64,000 nucleotides of DNA from a virus. Numbering within the stretch: the stretch's first letter is position 1; each line of letters starts with the position of its first letter. Location of the stretch: the IMG/VR virus record IMGVR_UViG_3300006224_000007, positions 1 through 64,000 of that record; one strand, given 5' to 3'. Positions 50-53,891 of the stretch are shown here, in pieces. Both the position numbers and the translations under genes were made by a program. The notes beneath the pieces were generated by a model, which was not told the origin of the DNA, searched no databases, and was given only the letters and a program-made list of their open reading frames with translations.

Positions 50-283
50 ATGGCTGAATTTGTTACTTTCAATCTTGCTGTACAGGGTGAGCCTGTTCGT
101 CCGTGCGAAGTTCCTGCTGGAACAACTGTAGGTGATATGAAGATTATCAAAGGTCTTGACCTTGATTTGGAATTTCGTCTTCATAGTGAACCTATTGATG
201 ACGATTTTGAACTTGATGACTACAGCATTGGCTGTGGTGATTATCTGATTGGCACTAAAGATGCCAAAGGTGCTGCTGTTTAG
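50..283 (+). CDS. Ubiquitin-like beta-grasp modifier (ThiS/MoaD/Ubl type)
   Basis: A 77-residue protein. The ATG at 50 is chosen because it follows AAAGGAGAAA; an upstream in-frame start at 20 lacks a ribosome site. The order of segments fits a beta-grasp fold: a first strand pair (VTFNLAVQGE), a PAGTTVGD turn like that of MoaD/ThiS proteins, and a late acidic-loop/strand segment (DDYSIGCGDYLIG). The protein ends Lys-Gly-Ala-Ala-Val, so there is no exposed Gly-Gly. If the downstream JAMM protease trims the tail, the mature end would be Lys-Gly. The call rests on this pattern plus the next three genes, which look like E2, JAMM and E1. A role in sulfur transfer rather than conjugation is possible. 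A terminator directly downstream suggests it is made in excess of its enzymes. Confidence 0.65.
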   Translation: MAEFVTFNLAVQGEPVRPCEVPAGTTVGDMKIIKGLDLDLEFRLHSEPIDDDFELDDYSIGCGDYLIGTKDAKGAAV

Positions 284-293
284 CATCTAAACT

Positions 294-340
294 GAGGGAG
301 AGATGAGGATTTATTTCCTTGTCTCTCCCTCTTTTCTTGT
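294..340 (+). terminator. Intrinsic terminator between Ubl and E2-like genes
   Basis: A perfect 10-bp stem (GAGGGAGAGA at 294-303 with TCTCTCCCTC at 322-331) is followed by TTTTCTTGTTT. It ends just before the ribosome site of the E2-like gene, so it probably attenuates readthrough and raises the Ubl:enzyme ratio. Confidence 0.85.
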
Positions 341-357
341 TTCTAAGGAGAAAAAAG

Positions 358-2226
358 ATGCAAATATTCTTACCAACCTCTGAAAGAGAAGATTTTCAGT
401 ACTTTCTTCAAGAGAAAACAGAAGTTACTCATTATGTAGCTTTTTACAGAACAAATAATGGAGTCTATTCTCAACTTGCCTGGGATGATGTAACTTTAAC
501 TTATGATAAAGTAAAAGAGTTTTGGGCTGAATATGACACAAGGAATAGAGCTATCTATTCGCTGGAAGATGGATTTGTAATATCTGCTGCTGAAGATGAA
601 AAATTTACACATTTTTTCTATGGTAATCTCACTGGCTCTGGTTTGTCAAGAAAAGAATCAGATTTTACTGTGGATGCTGCTGTTTGTGCGTCTAAACTTG
701 AAATAGATTTTCCACTGGCAGTAGAGTTTAATCCATCTAATTATTACATGATTAGAAATGTTCCTACCATAATTCTTCTTGGTAGAGAAGTATGGAGAAA
801 TCAAGGACAATATGCTCTTGTAAATAGTCCACAAGGCGTGGCGTTTAGAAATTTGGCGAACCTTATATTTATGCCAAACTCTATGGTTACTATGGAGAGT
901 CTCTATTTCATTCAGGAAAATCGAGCTAACTGCATAGTATTACCGTTTTGTGTTATTAGAAAAAATGAATTAGGCTTTGGTAACACTATCTTACTAAACT
1001 CAGTAATGTTTAGTGAAGATACAATGAGTGGAATAAAATCTATCTTTGAATTGCTGAAAGAGGATTTCTTCTGGAAGAAACTTCTTATTCCTCTTGCCTT
1101 TACTGACTTTGAAACTTTAAAAACTGAGCTTGAAAACCAGGAAATTCCACTGGCCTTGCAAGCCAAGGCATTTATTCTTCAATCAAAAAATGGTCTACTG
1201 CTTGACATAAAGACTTTGAATGAAGCAAATGCAATTATTTCTGAAGAAATAAGCGAGCTTATCACAGAAATAACAGATAAAAAACTAACAATAGACCGGG
1301 GAGAGCAGCAGATAGCTGAGAAACAAAAGGAGTTTGAGAGTGCATTAAGTTCTACTAAGCTTGAAGACGAATTTAAGAAAGTAGAAACTCTTCCCTATGT
1401 TACAAAGTTGACTTTTACTTCTGAGGGAATGGCAGTTTATACAGAACCTATTCAAATTGATAATGGACCTTTTCTTGGTGGATATAAGATTGTTTACAAT
1501 CCAGCCACAAGGAAATTGGCAATTTTCAATGAAGTTAATCCAGTAACTAAGGATGGCCTATTAGCGCATCCTCATGTACCGCAGGGTGGTCTACCTTGTT
1601 TTGGTAATTATAGTGATATCTTTTTCAGGTTTGGTACAGGAGAATTTTATGTAGCCATAGAAGAATTGTATAGATTCTTAGGTGCATATAATCCAGAAGA
1701 TACCTGGGGAAGACGTATGTTATATTGGGATGATGAATTTTACTACAAGGATATGAAAGAGCGAGAGCTTCTCCATCTATTAGGAGATGCTCATGATAGA
1801 AGATATCATGAAATAACAGGTGAACATTTGCCTTGCATAACAATTTGTTCTGAATGTGGTGAACCTGCGCGTACTTGTGCTTGTAATATTTGTGAAGTAT
1901 GCCAAAGACCGGAAGATGAATGTGAATGTTGGATTTGCACAAGATGTGGTGGAAATATAGATAATGGGGATTGTTATTGTGATAGATGTGACCAATGCCA
2001 TGAACTAGATGAAAACTGTGAATGTGATAGGTGCGAAGATTGTGAGGGTCTTCTAGACTATAACCATTACGGTTTGAATGGAGCTTGTGAATGTCCTAGA
2101 TGCCCTGATAATTATGACCATAGAATTGATGAAGATGAAGATGAAACTTGTATGGAATGTCGTGAATGGGAATGTCAATATAATCAGAATAATGAGCCTC
2201 ATCAAGAAGAAAGGTTGTTTGAATAA
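358..2226 (+). CDS. E2-like conjugating protein with C-terminal Cys-repeat array
   Basis: A 622-residue protein; the ATG at 358 follows CTAAGGAG. Residues 1 to about 290 match nothing I recognise. A charged, probably coiled-coil segment follows (about 290-340). Residues about 350-470 look like an E2/UBC core: several strands, then HPH at 404-406 and a Cys at 414 with Gly-Gly between. This spacing matches the HPN...G..C signature of ubiquitin E2 enzymes, where the Cys carries the modifier. The C-terminal third holds about 25 cysteines in five C-x2-C-x6-14-C-x-C-x2 repeats, likely binding several zinc ions. It could act like a fused E3 or a substrate-binding module. The gene overlaps the JAMM gene by one base. 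E2 activity is inferred from motif and context, and no E3 family could be assigned. Confidence 0.65.
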   Translation: MQIFLPTSEREDFQYFLQEKTEVTHYVAFYRTNNGVYSQLAWDDVTLTYDKVKEFWAEYDTRNRAIYSLEDGFVISAAEDEKFTHFFYGNLTGSGLSRKESDFTVDAAVCASKLEIDFPLAVEFNPSNYYMIRNVPTIILLGREVWRNQGQYALVNSPQGVAFRNLANLIFMPNSMVTMESLYFIQENRANCIVLPFCVIRKNELGFGNTILLNSVMFSEDTMSGIKSIFELLKEDFFWKKLLIPLAFTDFETLKTELENQEIPLALQAKAFILQSKNGLLLDIKTLNEANAIISEEISELITEITDKKLTIDRGEQQIAEKQKEFESALSSTKLEDEFKKVETLPYVTKLTFTSEGMAVYTEPIQIDNGPFLGGYKIVYNPATRKLAIFNEVNPVTKDGLLAHPHVPQGGLPCFGNYSDIFFRFGTGEFYVAIEELYRFLGAYNPEDTWGRRMLYWDDEFYYKDMKERELLHLLGDAHDRRYHEITGEHLPCITICSECGEPARTCACNICEVCQRPEDECECWICTRCGGNIDNGDCYCDRCDQCHELDENCECDRCEDCEGLLDYNHYGLNGACECPRCPDNYDHRIDEDEDETCMECREWECQYNQNNEPHQEERLFE

Positions 2227-3029
2227 TGGAAACTCCTAAAACAACTTTGTGGATTCCTCCAGAACTTTATGCAGAATTAATGTATTATGCTCATAATGTA
2301 AACACAGAAATCGGTGGTTATGGTTTAATTGAGATTGATAAGGAACACAATGACCTGTTAGTTGGAGAAGTGTTTCTCACTGAACAAGAAGTTCATGGTT
2401 CAAAATGTGACCTTTCTGCTGCTGGTCTAGCAATTTATATGGAAGATTTAATTGCTAGGGGAGAACAAGATAAAATTGAACAGATTACTTTGTGGTGGCA
2501 CTCTCATGTAAATATGTCACCATCACATTCTGGTCAAGATGAAGATACAATGCTTGAATGGCCTAGCAATTATGTGGTATCCCTGGTAATAAATCGCAAG
2601 GGAGATATGAAAGCTCGTCTAATGTCTAAAACTCCAGTAATAGTTGCAGGAGATATAGATGTAGCAGTTGACTGGCTTGATAATGAAAGTGCTGAAGTAT
2701 TAAATCAAACTATAGAAGATAAGGTAAAGGAATATACTCCCCCAAAGCCCGAGATAGTTGTTCAGGGTCAATTGCAACCAACTCCAAGAGGAAATGGTGG
2801 ATACAGCCCGTATGGATGGCCTCAAAATTATTGGGGCGGTTATCAAAGCTGTATGGATAAAAAGCCAGAGAAAAAGGCTCATGAACTAACTGATTCTGAA
2901 TGGAAAAATGAGCAAGAACGGCTTGATGCCGAAATAAATGCCTGGGAAAACAATGATATTGAAGGAATCATCAAGTATGGTGGTCTAGATGAAGCTGAAG
3001 CTAAGGCAATAAGAGAAATGTGGGATTAG
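2226..3029 (+). CDS. JAMM/MPN (JAB) metalloprotease, predicted Ubl processing or deconjugating enzyme
   Basis: A 267-residue protein with a complete JAMM zinc-protease signature: catalytic Glu28 in a TEIGG context, then His92-x-His94-x7-Ser102-x2-Asp105. Enzymes of this family cut isopeptide bonds or trim the C-terminus of ubiquitin-like proteins. The catalytic domain fills about residues 1-165. A Pro/Gly/Tyr-rich linker (about 175-215) and a charged helical tail follow. It sits between the E2-like and E1-like genes, so its likely substrate is the 77-residue modifier at 50-283, whose tail has no ready Gly-Gly. The motif is unambiguous; the substrate is inferred. Confidence 0.88.
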   Translation: METPKTTLWIPPELYAELMYYAHNVNTEIGGYGLIEIDKEHNDLLVGEVFLTEQEVHGSKCDLSAAGLAIYMEDLIARGEQDKIEQITLWWHSHVNMSPSHSGQDEDTMLEWPSNYVVSLVINRKGDMKARLMSKTPVIVAGDIDVAVDWLDNESAEVLNQTIEDKVKEYTPPKPEIVVQGQLQPTPRGNGGYSPYGWPQNYWGGYQSCMDKKPEKKAHELTDSEWKNEQERLDAEINAWENNDIEGIIKYGGLDEAEAKAIREMWD

Positions 3030-3031
3030 TT

Positions 3032-3688
3032 ATGACTGAAGCTTACACTAGAAGTATAGGAATTTTCAACCCCGATAATTCCCGACCAGTAGCTATTCTT
3101 GGTTGTGGTTCTGTTGGTTCTTTCGTAGCCTTGACATTAGCCAAAATGGGAGTACAATCTCTACATCTTTGGGATGGTGACACGGTTGGAGAAGAAAACA
3201 TTGGTTGCCAGAATTTTGGTTGGGAACACTTGGGTATGCCAAAGGTTGAAGCAGTAAAAGAAGTCATAATGGCTAATTCTCCAGTTAAGAGTGAGAATAT
3301 CCATTGTCACAATGAGTTTATCGGACCAGACACTAGGTTGCCAAAGATTATCACTGTTGTAGCAGTTGATAGCATGACAATACGACATTTGATTTGGGAT
3401 AAGCTCAAGAACAAAGTACCATTGATAGTCGATGGGCGCGTAGGTGGGCAGATAGTAAGAGTATTTAATGTACTTCCGACAGAAGAATTCTCAATATACT
3501 ATGAGAAATATCTTGTGCCAGAAGAAAAGGCATTAGAGCTTCCATGTACCGAAAGAAATGTCGCCTATGTTGCCAATATAGTACAAGCTATAATAGGGAG
3601 AGCCATACGAAATTTTATTGTAAATGGAAGAGTGGAGAAAGAAATCGGTATTGATGTTGCTACATTTATTAACTATGTAAAGGAATAA
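3032..3688 (+). CDS. E1/ThiF-like adenylyltransferase (Ubl activation)
   Basis: A 218-residue minimal E1. The nucleotide site is clear: GCGSVG at 24-29, Asp48 and Asp50 after the second strand, Asn56, Gln60 and Lys71, and the AVDS strand with Asp113. Cys172 in PCTERN near the C-terminus is the best candidate for the thioester cysteine. Such proteins adenylate the C-terminus of a ubiquitin-like partner using ATP and Mg. There are no extra domains (no rhodanese or UFD). The ATG at 3032 has GGGA eight bases upstream; a GTG at 3020 is in frame but poorly spaced. It directly follows the JAMM gene, completing a Ubl-E2-JAMM-E1 set. Confidence 0.88.
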   Translation: MTEAYTRSIGIFNPDNSRPVAILGCGSVGSFVALTLAKMGVQSLHLWDGDTVGEENIGCQNFGWEHLGMPKVEAVKEVIMANSPVKSENIHCHNEFIGPDTRLPKIITVVAVDSMTIRHLIWDKLKNKVPLIVDGRVGGQIVRVFNVLPTEEFSIYYEKYLVPEEKALELPCTERNVAYVANIVQAIIGRAIRNFIVNGRVEKEIGIDVATFINYVKE

Positions 3689-3936
3689 TGATGAAAGAAA
3701 ATAAAGCATTCTCTATAACCCCTGCTGAAATTCCTCCGAGAAAAGGAAAATCCAGCAAATATGTTGCTAGTGTAGAACAATTTTTAGCCTCAAATGAAAA
3801 GGCTGGAAAAATAACGCCAGAAGGCATAAAACTCAATGCGGTGTATTCTGGCTTTCATAGAGCAATAAAAAACGGATACTCTGACAAAGTAACCCTTTGT
3901 AGGGTAGATGGAGAGCTTTATATTGAAAAGCTCTAA
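3688..3936 (+). CDS. Small basic protein of unknown function
   Basis: An 82-residue protein starting at tandem ATGs (3688/3691), overlapping the E1 stop. Its C-terminal half (GFHRAIKNGY ... VDGELYIEK) resembles the protein at 15118-15261 (GLDRAIRKCGY ... KRGEVFIKK), so both seem to belong to one small helix-strand family, possibly nucleic-acid binding. It may only be co-transcribed with the Ubl cassette rather than part of it. Confidence 0.65.
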   Translation: MMKENKAFSITPAEIPPRKGKSSKYVASVEQFLASNEKAGKITPEGIKLNAVYSGFHRAIKNGYSDKVTLCRVDGELYIEKL

Positions 3937-10390: not shown

Positions 10391-10398
10391 TTGTAATT

Positions 10399-10485
10399 GG
10401 GCGAGTGGCGGAACTGGCAGACGCGCTAGACTTAAAATCTAGTCTTTGGGAAACCGGGGTGCGGGTTCAATTCCCGCCTTGCCCA
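10399..10485 (+). tRNA. tRNA-Leu (anticodon UAA)
   Basis: A full cloverleaf: acceptor GGGCGAG/CTTGCCC (one G-T pair), anticodon loop CTTAAAA on a CTAGA/TCTAG stem, long class II variable arm and T arm GCGGG-TTCAATT-CCCGC. Discriminator A; CCA is not encoded. UUA is a frequent codon in this A+T-rich phage, so it probably boosts translation. Confidence 0.95.
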
Positions 10486-10505
10486 TTAAACAAACGGAGG
10501 ATATA

Positions 10506-20841: not shown

Positions 20842-21906
20842 ATGTTGGATTACAAATTAAGTGTTGAATCTTTAAATGAGTTACAGGAACAGGATTTAGA
20901 TTTTAAAATCATGTACTCACTAGATAGAATTGCAGAATGGTATCGTCATTATGATGGAAAAACCTATGTAGCCTTTTCTGGTGGTAAAGATAGTACTGTT
21001 CTTCTTCATTTAGTGAGACAGATATATCCAGATACTCCTGCTATTTTTAATAATTCTGGAATGGAATATCCTGAAATAAGACAGTTTGTAAAAGAAACAG
21101 ACAATGTAACTTGGCTTAAACCAAAAATGAACTTTAAACAAGTTATTGAAAAATATGGTTGGCCTGTTATTAGTAAGCATCAAGCTGATTCTATAGCACA
21201 GGCACGAAGATTCAAAGCAGCAGGAAACCTTGAAGGCTTTCAAAGAAAGCTAAAACCTGGACCATATTCAGTAAATAAACGTTGGCAATTTTTAATAGAT
21301 GCGCCTTTTAAAATTTCAGGTAGATGCTGTGAATACTTAAAAAAGGAGCCAGCTTCTACTTATGTGAGAGCTACTGGAAGACAGGGATATTTAGGATTTT
21401 TAGGCTCAGAAAGTTGGATGCGAAGAGGGTTAGCATTAAGATATGGTTGTAATGCTTACGAATTAAAAACTCCAGTTTCTAGGCCACTCTTCATTTGGAA
21501 AGAGCAAGATATTTGGGATTATCTAAATGCTTTTAATGTTCCATATAGTCCAATATATGATATGGGTTATACACGAACTGGTTGCATGTTTTGTATGTTT
21601 GGTCTTCATATGGGAAGAATGCACGGCGAAGATAAATTTGAAATGATGAAAGAAACCCATCCAAAATATTATTCTTATTGTATGAATAAGCTTGGGTGTG
21701 GGGAAATTATAGATTATATTATTCAACGGTCTGGAGAGCTTCCTCCAACTGAAAAAATATGTAATGCGTGTAAAAGAACTCTTCCTGCAAGCACAGAATT
21801 TTTTGCTCCTAGAAATAATACCAGACTTGGATTGCAACCTTTGTGTAGAGAATGCTTTAATAAAAGAAGACGAGAAAAATATTATGAGAAAGAAGCTGGA
21901 GTATGA
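20842..21906 (+). CDS. PP-loop ATPase of the PAPS reductase/DndC family with C-terminal zinc finger
   Basis: 354 residues, ATG after AGGAGG. The PP-loop AFSGGKDST (about 43-51) binds ATP; FNNSGMEYPE and RCCEYLKKEP follow as in PAPS reductase relatives. CMFCMF near residue 250 may hold a metal centre. A treble-clef finger (CNACKRTLPASTEFF...CREC) ends the protein, like that at 19345. Family members activate sulfate, modify DNA with sulfur, or modify tRNA; which applies here cannot be told. No dnd partner genes are seen nearby. Confidence 0.85.
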   Translation: MLDYKLSVESLNELQEQDLDFKIMYSLDRIAEWYRHYDGKTYVAFSGGKDSTVLLHLVRQIYPDTPAIFNNSGMEYPEIRQFVKETDNVTWLKPKMNFKQVIEKYGWPVISKHQADSIAQARRFKAAGNLEGFQRKLKPGPYSVNKRWQFLIDAPFKISGRCCEYLKKEPASTYVRATGRQGYLGFLGSESWMRRGLALRYGCNAYELKTPVSRPLFIWKEQDIWDYLNAFNVPYSPIYDMGYTRTGCMFCMFGLHMGRMHGEDKFEMMKETHPKYYSYCMNKLGCGEIIDYIIQRSGELPPTEKICNACKRTLPASTEFFAPRNNTRLGLQPLCRECFNKRRREKYYEKEAGV

Positions 21907-22992: not shown

Positions 22993-24156
22993 ATGAAAGT
23001 AATAGCAACTGAGAAATTACCTATCAAGTTATGGTTGGAAGACATAGAGGATGGTGCTTTGGAACAGGCCAAACATCTTGCTAATCTTCCTTTCATACAT
23101 AAGCATGTAGCAATCATGCCTGATTCTCATGAAGGATATGGAATGCCTATTGGTGGAGTATTAGCTACCAAAGGTGTAGTAATTCCTAATGCGGTTGGTG
23201 TAGATATTGGTTGTGGAATGTGTGCTGTAAAAACTGACCAATACCAACACTGGATTCAACCCGAACAGTACAAACAAATAATGGGTAGAATTCGGGAAGA
23301 GATTCCTGTAGGATTTTCTCACCAGGAAACTGCTCAACAAATTCGTGATTTGCCTGATGGTGTAGAAGAAGACTATGTTATTGCAAGACAATATCTTGCA
23401 GCCCAAAAACAAATTGGAACTCTTGGTGGTGGAAACCATTTTATTGAGATTCAGTATGATGAAAAAGGCATGGTCTGGATAATGGTTCATTCTGGTTCTA
23501 GAAATCTTGGCAAGCAAGTTGCTGATGTGTATAATAAATGGGCGGTTCATTTGAATGAGCGTTGGCATTCTCAGGTTCCTAAAGAATGGCAGCTTGCTTT
23601 TCTTCCTATTGAAGAAGAAGTAGCCAAGAGATACATCATTGAAATGCAATACTGTGTAGATTTTGCCTTAGATAATAGATTAAATATGATGAACAAAATC
23701 CAGGATATCTTTGCAGAAGTTCTTGGTGTAGTTGGCTATGGTGATATAATTAACATAGCTCATAACTATGCTGTTTGGGAAAACCATTTTGGACAGAATG
23801 TTATTGTTCATAGAAAAGGTGCTACTCGCGCTAGAACAGGAGAGATAGGAATAATTCCTGGTAGCATGGGTACTTCGTCTTATATTGTGGAAGGATTAGG
23901 AAATGCTGAATCGTTTACGTCTTGCTCTCATGGTGCGGGTAGGAGAATGGGTAGAAAAGAAGCTACAAAAAGACTGGACCTTAGTACAGAAATCGGAAAC
24001 ATGGACGCAAAAGGAATCATACATGGTCTTAGAAATCAATCAGACTTGGATGAAGCGCCAGGAGCTTACAAAGATATAGATGAAGTGATGGAAAATCAAA
24101 AAGACCTTGTTAAGATTCTTGTTAAATTACAACCATTGGCGGTAATAAAGGGATGA
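22993..24156 (+). CDS. rtcB: RtcB RNA ligase
   Basis: 387 residues. Conserved RtcB landmarks: MPDSHEGYGMPIG, VGVDIGCGMCAV (Mn-binding Asp/Cys), GGGNHFIE, MVHSGSRNLGK and SCSHGAGR near the end, whose His takes the GMP. RtcB joins 2',3'-cyclic phosphate or 3'-phosphate RNA ends to 5'-OH ends. No archease is seen. It lies after the nucleotidyltransferase, pointing to an RNA-repair pair. Confidence 0.95.
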   Translation: MKVIATEKLPIKLWLEDIEDGALEQAKHLANLPFIHKHVAIMPDSHEGYGMPIGGVLATKGVVIPNAVGVDIGCGMCAVKTDQYQHWIQPEQYKQIMGRIREEIPVGFSHQETAQQIRDLPDGVEEDYVIARQYLAAQKQIGTLGGGNHFIEIQYDEKGMVWIMVHSGSRNLGKQVADVYNKWAVHLNERWHSQVPKEWQLAFLPIEEEVAKRYIIEMQYCVDFALDNRLNMMNKIQDIFAEVLGVVGYGDIINIAHNYAVWENHFGQNVIVHRKGATRARTGEIGIIPGSMGTSSYIVEGLGNAESFTSCSHGAGRRMGRKEATKRLDLSTEIGNMDAKGIIHGLRNQSDLDEAPGAYKDIDEVMENQKDLVKILVKLQPLAVIKG

Positions 24157-51176: not shown

Positions 51177-51388
51177 TGGAATGTCCAAGATGCCATAAGA
51201 CACACTTTAATACTTTTATAATTAGCCGATATAAAGAGAAGATGCCTGTTAATAAATGTTGTATTTGTGGGTATCTTTGGATAGATGACAAAGATTTAAT
51301 TACACTAACAAAGGCTGAGTCGAAGAAAATGTTCATAGAAACTTTGAGGAATATGGGGAAATATGACCAACGAAAAGACAGTAGTTAA
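51176..51388 (+). CDS. Small zinc-ribbon protein before terminase
   Basis: 70 residues, GTG start. CPRCHK and CCICGY knuckles. Overlaps the terminase gene by 26 bases. Unknown. Confidence 0.6.
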   Translation: MECPRCHKTHFNTFIISRYKEKMPVNKCCICGYLWIDDKDLITLTKAESKKMFIETLRNMGKYDQRKDSS

Positions 51389-53891
51389 ACTATCTCCTGC
51401 ACTTGAAGAGAAGATAGTTGATAAAATTGTAGACCTTGCTCAATATATGGGAGAGATGAAATTCTACCCATATCAACTTCCTTTTGCTCGGAGACTAACT
51501 CAGAGCATTATCACTAATGAGGGTGCTACCCTCTCCGCTCTTTTTTCCCGTCAGTGTATTCTTCAAAAATCATTTATCATGGACCGTGATGGTAAGGTCA
51601 TGTTCATTGAAAAACACCCTGATGCCTGGGAAACACAAAGTCAAGCTAATATTTTAGAGATTAAAACTCTTGGTGGTCATGTAATTAAATGCACAGAAGA
51701 ACACCCTATTGCTACAGACCAAGGTTGGATGCCAGCCCAATGTGTAGAAAAGGGTACAAAAGTAGTAGTCCTAGACCAATGGAATAAGTTTGGAGATGGA
51801 ATAATTCCATACAAGGACAAAACTTTTGTTATGAGTAATGATTTGGCTGAGTTAGTTGGATGGCTTACTGCAAATATCAGAGATTCAGAAGAAGTTAAAA
51901 TCACCATAGGCCATAAAAGAGTCTTAGAACTGATTACAAAATATTTTCTTGATTCAGATTTTACTGCTAGAAAGACTAGTTTGACCATTCGATTGAATGG
52001 TCACTTAAAAAATTTCTTAAAATTTGTAATTAAATACAATAGTTATGGTATGCCTGAAGGCATTAACTATTTTACTAGAGAACAGTTGATTAGATTCTTT
52101 TACCCACTATTTCTTACTAATGGAAAAACCTATAAGAAACCTAGCACTATGAAGATAATGCTAAAAGACTTAAACTATTTTGCTCTATTGTTTTACAAGG
52201 AGCATCTTAATAAGCTAGGTTTACATGGAAACTACGAGATGTGGATTGGTCATAACTTAATTTTTCAATGTGCTACTAACTACTTACGTTTTAAAGAATT
52301 GTTTGAAGAATATCTTCCCAAAGAGTATTTTCCTTCTTTCTATCAGTATAGAAAAAGAGCCAGCAAAACTTTTGAAGGAGAAGATGGAGAAATTCTTACC
52401 TATGCTAGAGTACATTCAATAAAATGGGAAGCTGTGCATGTTCCTGTATGGGATATTAATGTTCCTGATAAGGGATGGTTTTTAGTTTCAGGTGCAAAAG
52501 TGCATAACTCAGGAAAAACTCAAGTTGTAGCTATGATTACGGCTGCTTGCATGGTAGTTTTGCCTACGTTAGCAGAAAAATTTCCTGAGAATTTTGGCTT
52601 GTTTATTAAGGGATTTTGGGCTGGATGCTTTGGTCCTGTAGGAGAACAAGCTATTACAATGTTTGATAGAATCTACTCAGTTTTTGTTTCAGATAATAGT
52701 AAAAGATTATTCATTGAAGAGTTAAAGATGCCAATACCAGCGCAGGGTGGAGCGCGTGGAAACCTAATCAAGCTTAAAAATAAGTCCTTTGTACGTTATC
52801 AATCTGGTAGTCGTAGAGCAAAAGTTGAGTCTAAAACATACCATCTTATCATTCTTGATGAATGTCAAGATATGGAATCCTTCAAGATTAAGAAGTCTAT
52901 TCTTCCTATGGGTGCTGCTGTTAATGCTACAGTTGTAACTACAGGTACACCTGATGTTTACATTGGTTATTTTTATGATACAATAGAACAGAATAAAGCC
53001 GAAGATATTAAAAATCCAGGTCCAAAGCAAATGCACTTTGAAATTGATTATCAAGTTGCTCAAAAATATAATCCTATGTATAAGAAGTATATTCAAAAAG
53101 AGATAAAACGTCTTGGTTTTGAATCTGATGAATTCAAGATGGCCTATAGACTTATTTGGCCTATAACAAAAGGGATGGTATTTACTAAATCTCAACTAGA
53201 TGAAAAGTGTTATAATAAGGCATTGAAGTTTGTACAGGAATGGCATGAAACACCTTGTATAGCTGGGCTTGACTTAGGAAAGGCTCAAAACTCTACAGTC
53301 GTGTTTGTTCTTAGACCTTTTTGGGAAGATGCTGACGAAGAAGGAAATGTTCCTAAACAAATTTTAAACTGGATGGAACTTGAAGGAGATGAATGGGAAG
53401 AACAATATCCAAAAGTGGTAGACTTTCTAAGCAACTATTGGATTGATTCCCTAGTCTGTGATTCAACAGGAGTAGGTAATCCTATAACAGAACGTTATGC
53501 TAAACTACTTCCTAATACAAACGTAGTTCCATTTGTATTTAGTCCTACCTCTAAAGATATTGGGTATAAATACTTTCTTCAAGAAGTTAATCAAAAGAGA
53601 TTAATTATTCCCGCCCATACGAGCGTTCGTAATACTAATCGGTTCAAAAAATTTGAGCATCAGATGACTACTTTGAAGAAACATTATAGTGGTAAGTTTT
53701 TAAGTCCATGCCCTATAGATGCCGATAAAGGTCATGATGACTATTGTGATTCCTTGATGCTTGCTATATTCGGTACATTTTATGAAGTTATGCCTGAAAT
53801 AGAAGAAACATACAATGATTTCTTCCTAGCATCAAGAGATAATATAGAACAAACCTTTGGAAGAAACTATTCTAGACCGAGAAAAACATAA
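51363..53891 (+). CDS. terL: Terminase large subunit (precursor split by intein)
   Basis: 842 residues. The precursor is interrupted at residue 64/65 by a 318-residue intein. Once it is removed, RQ joins SGKTQ to make the Walker A of a T4-type packaging ATPase, with Walker B LIILDECQDM. The C-terminal nuclease has Asp at AGLDLGKAQNS, DSTGVGNP and GHDDYCDSLM. Mature length is about 524. Pumps DNA into the head and cuts concatemers. Followed by portal and head genes. Confidence 0.93.
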   Translation: MTNEKTVVKLSPALEEKIVDKIVDLAQYMGEMKFYPYQLPFARRLTQSIITNEGATLSALFSRQCILQKSFIMDRDGKVMFIEKHPDAWETQSQANILEIKTLGGHVIKCTEEHPIATDQGWMPAQCVEKGTKVVVLDQWNKFGDGIIPYKDKTFVMSNDLAELVGWLTANIRDSEEVKITIGHKRVLELITKYFLDSDFTARKTSLTIRLNGHLKNFLKFVIKYNSYGMPEGINYFTREQLIRFFYPLFLTNGKTYKKPSTMKIMLKDLNYFALLFYKEHLNKLGLHGNYEMWIGHNLIFQCATNYLRFKELFEEYLPKEYFPSFYQYRKRASKTFEGEDGEILTYARVHSIKWEAVHVPVWDINVPDKGWFLVSGAKVHNSGKTQVVAMITAACMVVLPTLAEKFPENFGLFIKGFWAGCFGPVGEQAITMFDRIYSVFVSDNSKRLFIEELKMPIPAQGGARGNLIKLKNKSFVRYQSGSRRAKVESKTYHLIILDECQDMESFKIKKSILPMGAAVNATVVTTGTPDVYIGYFYDTIEQNKAEDIKNPGPKQMHFEIDYQVAQKYNPMYKKYIQKEIKRLGFESDEFKMAYRLIWPITKGMVFTKSQLDEKCYNKALKFVQEWHETPCIAGLDLGKAQNSTVVFVLRPFWEDADEEGNVPKQILNWMELEGDEWEEQYPKVVDFLSNYWIDSLVCDSTGVGNPITERYAKLLPNTNVVPFVFSPTSKDIGYKYFLQEVNQKRLIIPAHTSVRNTNRFKKFEHQMTTLKKHYSGKFLSPCPIDADKGHDDYCDSLMLAIFGTFYEVMPEIEETYNDFFLASRDNIEQTFGRNYSRPRKT
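51555..52508 (+). other. Intein in terminase Walker A, with degenerate LAGLIDADG-type insert
   Basis: 318 residues, from Cys65 to Asn382 of the precursor. N-terminal block A is CILQKS, block B GHVIKCTEEHPI (T-x-x-H). C-terminal blocks have VWDINVPDKGWFLVSG and end VHN; the next residue is Ser, so Cys1, His-Asn and Ser+1 are all present. A middle region (LAELVGWLTAN) looks like a degenerate homing endonuclease. The intein appears splicing-competent. Confidence 0.9.

Follow-up and report, generated by a model that had tools for sequence, protein, structure and literature searches.

Here we describe a four-gene ubiquitin-like (Ubl) cassette in a stretch of viral DNA of 64,000 nucleotides (hereafter the window), which comprises bases 1-64000 of the 77,150-bp IMG/VR virus record IMGVR_UViG_3300006224_000007, a linear fragment with no terminal repeats. 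Four plus-strand genes at positions 50-3688 encode, in this order, a Ubl modifier, an E2-like protein, a JAMM protease and an E1. An earlier note on this DNA had read four adjacent genes with these motif sets, and the observation is confirmed, all the open reading frames (ORFs) and motifs being present as it described. The gene set and its order, the predicted folds, the active-site motifs, their family-wide conservation and a poly-Ubl architecture were computed directly. Together, they make it quite probable that the cassette is a phage-borne system for Ubl conjugation and deconjugation. The cassette belongs to a widespread phage family (roughly 100 diverse viral contigs) and is not a single oddity, which is a larger finding than the one claimed earlier.

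Organization and detection of the cassette

A purine-rich ribosome-binding site precedes both the Ubl and the E2-like genes, and the stop codon of the E2-like gene and the JAMM start overlap by one base. Because of this overlap and that between the E1 stop and the start of an 82-residue ORF, the genes appear to form one translationally coupled unit, in which the 82-residue ORF is probably a co-transcribed neighbour and a candidate only as a member of the cassette (Table 1). The earlier note also stated that the set stands alone with no effector beside it, which holds for the visible sequence only: only 49 bp of the record precede the start codon of the Ubl gene, so that the upstream side is cut.

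In curated libraries, the E1 alone exceeded the cut-off (ThiF, 1.7e-16) and the JAMM protein gave a sub-threshold match (Prok-JAB, 8.9e-4), while neither the Ubl nor the E2-like protein had a meaningful match in Pfam, NCBIfam, PHROG or PADLOC. Since scans for close relatives found none, either in viral contigs (window proteins P0002 and P0004) or in genome contigs (P0004), family profiles based on more distant relatives were needed. Hidden Markov models (HMMs) were therefore built from relatives without the window and then run on all 455 window ORFs, where the top ranks went to the Ubl (7.8e-7), E2-like (3.6e-18), JAMM (6.4e-48) and E1 (3.2e-55) genes, the second-best window ORF scoring above 0.2 with each model. 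As these leave-window-out HMMs rank exactly the four cassette ORFs first, the cassette is beyond chance. Compared as profiles, the families match SAMP2/ubiquitin, Ubc4-type E2s, Rpn11/PfJAMM1 and MoeB/UBA5, respectively, in agreement with the earlier assignments.

Table 1. Coordinates of the cassette and of related features. Unprefixed positions refer to the window; those with an L number refer to other loci of the family.
Feature	Position	Strand	Description and basis
Ubl modifier	50-283	+	77 residues, beta-grasp; leave-window-out HMM, SAMP2/polyubiquitin profile matches, AlphaFold/Foldseek
E2-like protein	358-2226	+	622 residues: variable N-terminal region with coiled-coil-like stretch, E2 core, Cys-rich tail
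E2 (UBC-like) core	1330-1779	+	leave-window-out HMM 3.6e-18; AlphaFold, Foldseek; Ubc4 alignment
E2 active-site motif H404-P-H406 ... C414	1567-1599	+	conservation in family E2s
Cys-rich repeat tail of E2-like protein	1831-2181	+	CxxC-x7-CxC units, zinc-finger-like
JAMM/MPN+ metalloprotease	2226-3029	+	267 residues; Prok-JAB 8.9e-4, leave-window-out HMM 6.4e-48, Rpn11/PfJAMM1 profile matches
Minimal noncanonical-type E1 (ThiF/MoeB/UBA5-like adenylation domain)	3032-3688	+	218 residues; ThiF PF00899 1.7e-16
82-residue ORF	3688-3936	+	ORF list, sequence; start overlaps E1 stop
Poly-Ubl genes	L110:2264-2896, L099:5278-5691, L015:7882-8292, L116:8435-8866, L120:1347-1775, L158:8358-8771		2-3 Ubl repeats
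Ubl-adjoining protein (~130-145 residues)	L013:2431-3063 and 1702-2319; L006:2602-3027; L011:3547-3978; L014:3696-4085		
Reverse transcriptase neighbours	L006, L011-L014, L153, L157, L182-L200		18 loci

Ubl modifier and JAMM protease

The window Ubl ends in T-K-D-A-K-G74-A-A-V, and thus carries a processable tail (AKG-AAV) from which the AAV is predicted to be removable by the JAMM protease. The Ubl family profile matches SAMP2 over its full length (3.5e-9) as well as polyubiquitin (2.5e-12), with weak matches also to ThiS, MoaD and TtuB. The beta-grasp fold on which the earlier reading depended is borne out by the AlphaFold model (predicted local distance difference test, pLDDT, 81), whose best Foldseek matches are SUMO, ISG15 and ubiquitin (template modelling, TM, scores of about 0.6-0.74). 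Across the family, most tails consist of [KDRE]G[GNA] followed by 0-3 residues. Additionally, genes in six loci encode two or three head-to-tail Ubls joined by KGN, KGG or RGA in a polyubiquitin-like manner, and in locus L013 the Ubl C-terminus is fused to a second protein; both kinds of gene have the architecture of a precursor that a JAMM protease would process. The fused partner is a conserved protein of ~130-145 residues and unknown function, which adjoins the Ubl in other loci and, by analogy with ubiquitin-ribosomal protein fusions, is possibly released by the JAMM protease.

The protease itself carries H92-x-H94-x7-S102-x2-D105 together with E28, which makes up a complete E...HxHx7SxxD motif. 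This motif is intact in 149 of 150 distinct relatives, and the family profile matches Rpn11 (1.8e-4) and PfJAMM1 (3.2e-4).

E2-like protein

The motif of the window protein, H404-P405-H406...C414-x-G416, is invariant at all five named positions across 25 full-length relatives, and the P, H, C and G are common to all 45 diverged E2 cores. In the family profile alignment, 'HPHvssdgtaClGn' falls on 'HPNINANGNICLDI' of yeast Ubc4 (HPN...C). Nearly all the matches of this profile in the PDB are to ubiquitin E2s, each individually weak (the best E2, Ubc4, at 0.019); one designed helical protein is matched over a repeat (4e-4). The AlphaFold model of the core (pLDDT 85) shows a layout of alpha1, beta meander, active site and helices, and its top seven PDB matches in Foldseek are all ubiquitin-type E2s, including UbcH7, UbcH8, UBE2L6 and a Leishmania E2, with modest scores (best E 1.2e-3, TM about 0.3-0.5); the bacterial E1-E2-Ubl structure 8tz0 is also among the matches. 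The UBC fold that the earlier note placed around Cys414 is accordingly predicted, and the core combines an E2 fold of modest similarity with an active-site Cys and a preceding HP[NH]. A BFVD fold search with the core returned a single uncharacterised phage protein (E 5e-4).

Outside the core, a coiled-coil-like stretch lies upstream, and the tail that follows contains 25 Cys in tandem zinc-finger-like CxxC units. Tails with at least 8 Cys occur in 13 of 81 family E2s, and the Cys-rich tail is possibly a substrate or E3-like module. Cys-rich stretches of Gordonia phages that were retrieved by tblastn with window protein P0002 (E 8e-3) were set aside as a zinc-finger-like resemblance, not E2 kinship. 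One locus (L116:4151-10736) contains several E2-like ORFs, one directly upstream of the JAMM gene and one ~2 kb downstream, plus a weaker motif match.

E1 enzyme

The window E1 is a single adenylation domain of 218 residues, in which GxGxxG, D48/D50, N56, Q60, K71 and D113 are present. The domain resembles those of MoeB, UBA5 and ThiF, with family profile matches to UBA5 (6e-16) and MoeB (5e-13), and G24, G26, D48, N56, K71, D113, R136 and C172 are identical across 112 E1 relatives. In MoeB, the ATP/Mg adenylation residues are Gly41, Arg73, Lys86 and Asp130 (PMC12355090); measured against this list, Lys71 and Asp113 are invariant and the glycine-rich loop is kept, whereas the Arg position is never Arg. 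Among known bacterial systems, BubCD shows similarity at the E1 level only (3e-6), and the PADLOC E1-E2 model matches at 3.5e-18. Bub-type pathways work through oxyester intermediates and a protease that is not of the JAMM type, whereas the present family conserves a Cys and the JAMM protease. Public records label the cassette E1 'thiamine biosynthesis protein (ThiF)' in four loci (L003, L004, L005 and L203, corresponding to FpV4, cr85_1, cr111_1 and PhiXhv-15), a label that is probably misleading.

Distribution and conservation of the gene set

The family was assembled by tblastn of the E1, followed by stepwise scans of IMG/VR with E1 and JAMM profiles. The former yielded crAss-like phages, Flavobacterium phage FpV4 and one gut scaffold, in whose neighbourhoods Ubl-like, E2-like, JAMM and E1 genes follow one another as they do in the window, and the latter added 160 loci. 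All four genes occur in 72 of 164 viral loci, many of the others being cut by contig ends. Among the 80 loci found by JAMM alone, 67 contain the E2, 75 the E1 and 70 the Ubl. An independent test was provided by a GTDB genome scan with JAMM alone, which gave 26 loci that had no part in making the profiles: in the same stretch as the JAMM gene, and mostly adjoining it, the E2 was found in 26/26, the E1 in 25/26 and the Ubl in 22/26, with all four genes in 22/26.

The commonest order, Ubl-E2-JAMM-E1, is found in 44 loci including the window, and permuted orders (Ubl-E1-JAMM-E2, E2-JAMM-E1-Ubl and others) occur too; because the order shuffles while the membership stays, the four genes are likely to act together. 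Relatives are present in cultured crAss-like, Flavobacterium and Xanthomonas phages. The crAss-like cassette, in which JAMM and E1 are clear, the Ubl is weak (5e-4 to 0.3) and the E2 HMM is silent despite an H-x-H...C-L-G motif, is a probable distant relative of the window cassette.

Proposed mechanism and alternative explanations

The results support the interpretation of the earlier note that the cassette serves conjugation, with conjugation itself and its target being putative. In the scheme that we propose, we infer the catalysis, the trimming site, the thioester steps and the lysine acceptor. The JAMM protease would first cut the Ubl after Gly74, releasing AAV. The E1, as a MoeB/UBA5-type homodimer, would then adenylate the Ubl C-terminus with ATP, and Cys172 probably carries the Ubl. 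Transfer to Cys414 of the E2-like protein would follow, with the coiled-coil and Cys-rich zinc-finger-like parts selecting the target, and the Ubl would finally be linked to a lysine residue in a protein of the phage or of the host. The JAMM protease might also be able to strip the Ubl off its target.

Several observations weigh against this scheme. In absolute terms, the E2 fold is matched only weakly (Foldseek E 1.2e-3; HMM Ubc4 E 0.019). The equivalent of MoeB Arg73 (the NxxRQ Arg) is never Arg in ~100 E1 relatives, being usually Asn and, in the window, Cys. The C172 of the E1 cannot be aligned to any known catalytic Cys, as local matches end near residue 120-135. The Ubls of a gut/rumen clostridial clade end in ...DNA or ...DNAA, without a terminal Gly. 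Furthermore, when the nearness of replication genes was tested by a random-placement null over 39 cassette records, DnaB/primase distances were shorter than random placement at P about 0.02-0.10 only, a trend. Because of the lost E1 Arg and the ...DNA-tailed clade in particular, the mechanism is put forward with caution.

What the Ubl would be attached to is a separate matter. The cassette may tag or inactivate host anti-phage proteins, or its JAMM protease and Ubl may decoy Ubl systems of the host such as Bil or CBASS. This hypothesis concerns the target inside the conjugation mechanism and not a different chemistry, and we consider it possible, though on balance doubtful. Bacterial Ubl systems are known in phage conflict (PMC10097602; Bil, PMC11354881), and the distribution of the cassette across phages is patchy and highly diversified, as would suit such a role, but no defence-linked neighbour was noticed and a decoy would need less than the full four-enzyme kit.

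As a further target, we tentatively entertain the structural or replisome proteins of the phage, on which the Ubl would signal assembly or turnover; an AAA unfoldase encoded by the phage might read this signal. Bil acts on phage structural proteins and thereby offers a precedent. DnaB lies 5-6.4 kb from the cassette, centre to centre, in 8 records including the window, and a classic AAA ATPase (PF00004, 6e-29), which could be the unfoldase reading the tag, is found within several kb of it in 14 loci (L108:11970-13526 and 13 similar). Nevertheless, the distance statistic is a trend, the AAA gene is confined to few lineages and the terminase, used as a control in the same 39 records, shows no nearness to the cassette (P 0.46-0.76). 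As the placement null gave a trend only, an association with the replication module is not claimed, and an early or replication-phase role of the cassette is treated as a lead. The DnaB gene of the window starts 3.1 kb downstream of the cassette, and the head and tail genes are far away; on account of this placement, our guess is that the target is a host or phage protein of the early or replication phase rather than of the virion.

Sulfur transfer, which the earlier note had kept as the alternative while taking the E2-like Cys to favour conjugation, is disfavoured and appears improbable. In such a pathway, the E1 would thiocarboxylate the Ubl, which would then deliver sulfur to a reaction involving a tRNA, a cofactor or an amino acid, and the JAMM protease would be the processing enzyme, as in CysO/Mec+, ThiS/ThiF or TtuB systems. 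The ThiF type of the E1, the weak ThiS, MoaD and TtuB matches of the Ubl profile and a PAPS-reductase-family gene in the window (20842-21906) would fit this chemistry, but a sulfur donor is not a feature of the cassette loci: rhodanese was detected in 0/39 cassette records, compared with 13/14 control genomes, and PAPS reductase in 1/39, namely the window's own. Transfer through that enzyme was rejected, since the gene is not common to the cassette relatives. Tandem poly-Ubls would have no obvious use in sulfur transfer, and we know of no sulfur-carrier pathway that needs, or has a place for, an E2 with HPH...C. The C-terminal part of the window's PAPS-reductase-family protein resembles HNH/Lar-like zinc domains.

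That the set is a degenerate complex, acting non-covalently or solely on the Ubl itself (poly-Ubl processing), is likewise hard to credit, for although the loss of the NxxRQ Arg and the clade without a C-terminal Gly would agree with it, the E2 His/Cys, the JAMM zinc ligands, the E1 Lys/Asp and, except in that clade, the Ubl Gly persist although the sequences have diverged strongly, a pattern that speaks for selection on catalysis.

Source phage and genomic neighbourhood

The source of the window is a tailed phage by its gene content, because PHROGs identify a terminase, portal and major head protein together with replication genes (family-A DNA polymerase, UvsX-like recombinase, primase) and a ribonucleotide reductase; the DnaB helicase was recognised via Pfam. 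The plus strand holds 97 of 98 non-overlapping ORFs of at least 80 residues, the G+C content is 36%, and a DNA-level search of the window against phage records gave zero matches. The terminase large subunit ORF (51363-53891, 842 residues) has PHROG terminase/head matches at residues 97-153 and 381-811 and appears to be interrupted by an intein-like insertion near the beginning of its ATPase part. An RtcB-type tRNA ligase is encoded at 22993-24156 and a tRNA-Leu(TAA) at 10398-10486; over the first 12 kb of the window, Rfam detected nothing but one tRNA. A group of gut/rumen clostridial phages has a gene for a reverse transcriptase (PF00078, 1.7e-15 in L011) near the cassette, usually just downstream.

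Significance for phage biology

We found no description of phage-borne Ubl-E2-JAMM-E1 sets in the open literature, with prior notice in subscription papers being possible. For the terms searched, neither a jumbo-phage survey from 2021 that covered 224 phages (PMC7824862) nor an analysis of crAss-like phages from the same year (PMC7886860) mentions the cassette. Known bacterial Ubl conjugation systems have been viewed mostly as host defence. In the present case a phage encodes the full set, and its occurrence in ~100 very different viral contigs suggests that phages employ ubiquitin-like tagging of their own. We lean, by a small degree, towards the broader view that complete E1-E2-Ubl-JAMM systems, distinct from all the bacterial ones described, are common among tailed phages (crAss-like ones among them), which would mark host or phage proteins with them early in infection. 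The hallmarks of these proposed systems would be an HPH...CxGN E2, often with zinc-finger-like tails, an NxxNQ E1 and poly-Ubl precursors. If this is true, ubiquitin-like tagging in prokaryotes is also a virus-side weapon or control system, not host defence alone. The relatives in cultured phages make phage-directed Ubl tagging testable in laboratory phage-host pairs, for example with Bacteroides phage DAC15, and the presence of polyubiquitin-like tandem genes and zinc-finger-tailed E2s in bacterial viruses bears on the evolution of ubiquitin-type cascades.

Comparison with known systems

Bacterial operons 6a-6e were predicted by Iyer, Burroughs and Aravind in 2006 (PMC1779556), and row 6d, which is taken to be the later PRTRC, is nearest to the window cassette in gene content: it comprises four separate genes for a Ubl, a JAB protein, a ThiF-type E1 and an E2 with G-x-x-C-x-G-N, in a mobile-element setting. 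However, its E2 has a His after the Cys and none before (PMC1779556; L202 sequence), whereas the window E2 has HPH before the Cys. Membership of PRTRC was rejected, as the window E1 scores 24.5 bits against PRTRC_ThiF with a cut-off of 144.75; the NCBIfam PRTRC models do not match the window Ubl, E2 or JAMM, and in a true PRTRC locus scanned with the cassette HMMs, the E1 alone matches. PRTRC sets further include ParB and an alpha-helical partner next to the four genes.

Bil shares with the cassette the four genes for Ubl, E2, JAMM and E1 and, under the scheme proposed above, the conjugation chemistry and the trimming of the Ubl tail by JAMM. The BilB E2 carries a CEHH motif (PMC11354881), and no such pattern (C-x5-E-x-H-x4-H) is present in the window residues after C414 (FGNYSDIFFRFGTGEF). 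Unlike the window E1, which has one ThiF domain in 218 residues, the BilD E1 comprises an inactive and an active adenylation domain plus a Cys domain; moreover, Bil is a host defence, whereas the window cassette is phage-borne. Type II CBASS Cap2/Cap3 resembles the cassette in its E1 adenylation domain (the PADLOC E1-E2 match of 3.5e-18) and JAB protease, but Cap2 is an E1-E2 fusion acting on CD-NTase, with no separate Ubl, while the window has separate E1 and E2 proteins and a true Ubl (no profile search was made for a CD-NTase).

The archaeal SAMP2/UbaA/JAMM1 system is similar in its minimal E1, in a Ubl to which that of the window is near by profile (3.5e-9) and in its protease, the window JAMM being near PfJAMM1. 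To our knowledge, it has no E2, and its E1 retains NxxRQ; the window cassette, in contrast, has an E2 and an E1 that has lost that Arg. Phage lambda-type TAPI/TAPK likewise pairs a phage-borne Ubl-like protein with a JAB protein (JAB/NlpC in tail assembly; PMC1779556), but it lacks E1 and E2 and lies in the tail module, whereas in the window the cascade is complete and its genes stand apart from the structural ones. As far as its sequence indicates, therefore, the window cassette works like a known kind of system, yet it is no member of the tested PRTRC, Bil and type II CBASS families.

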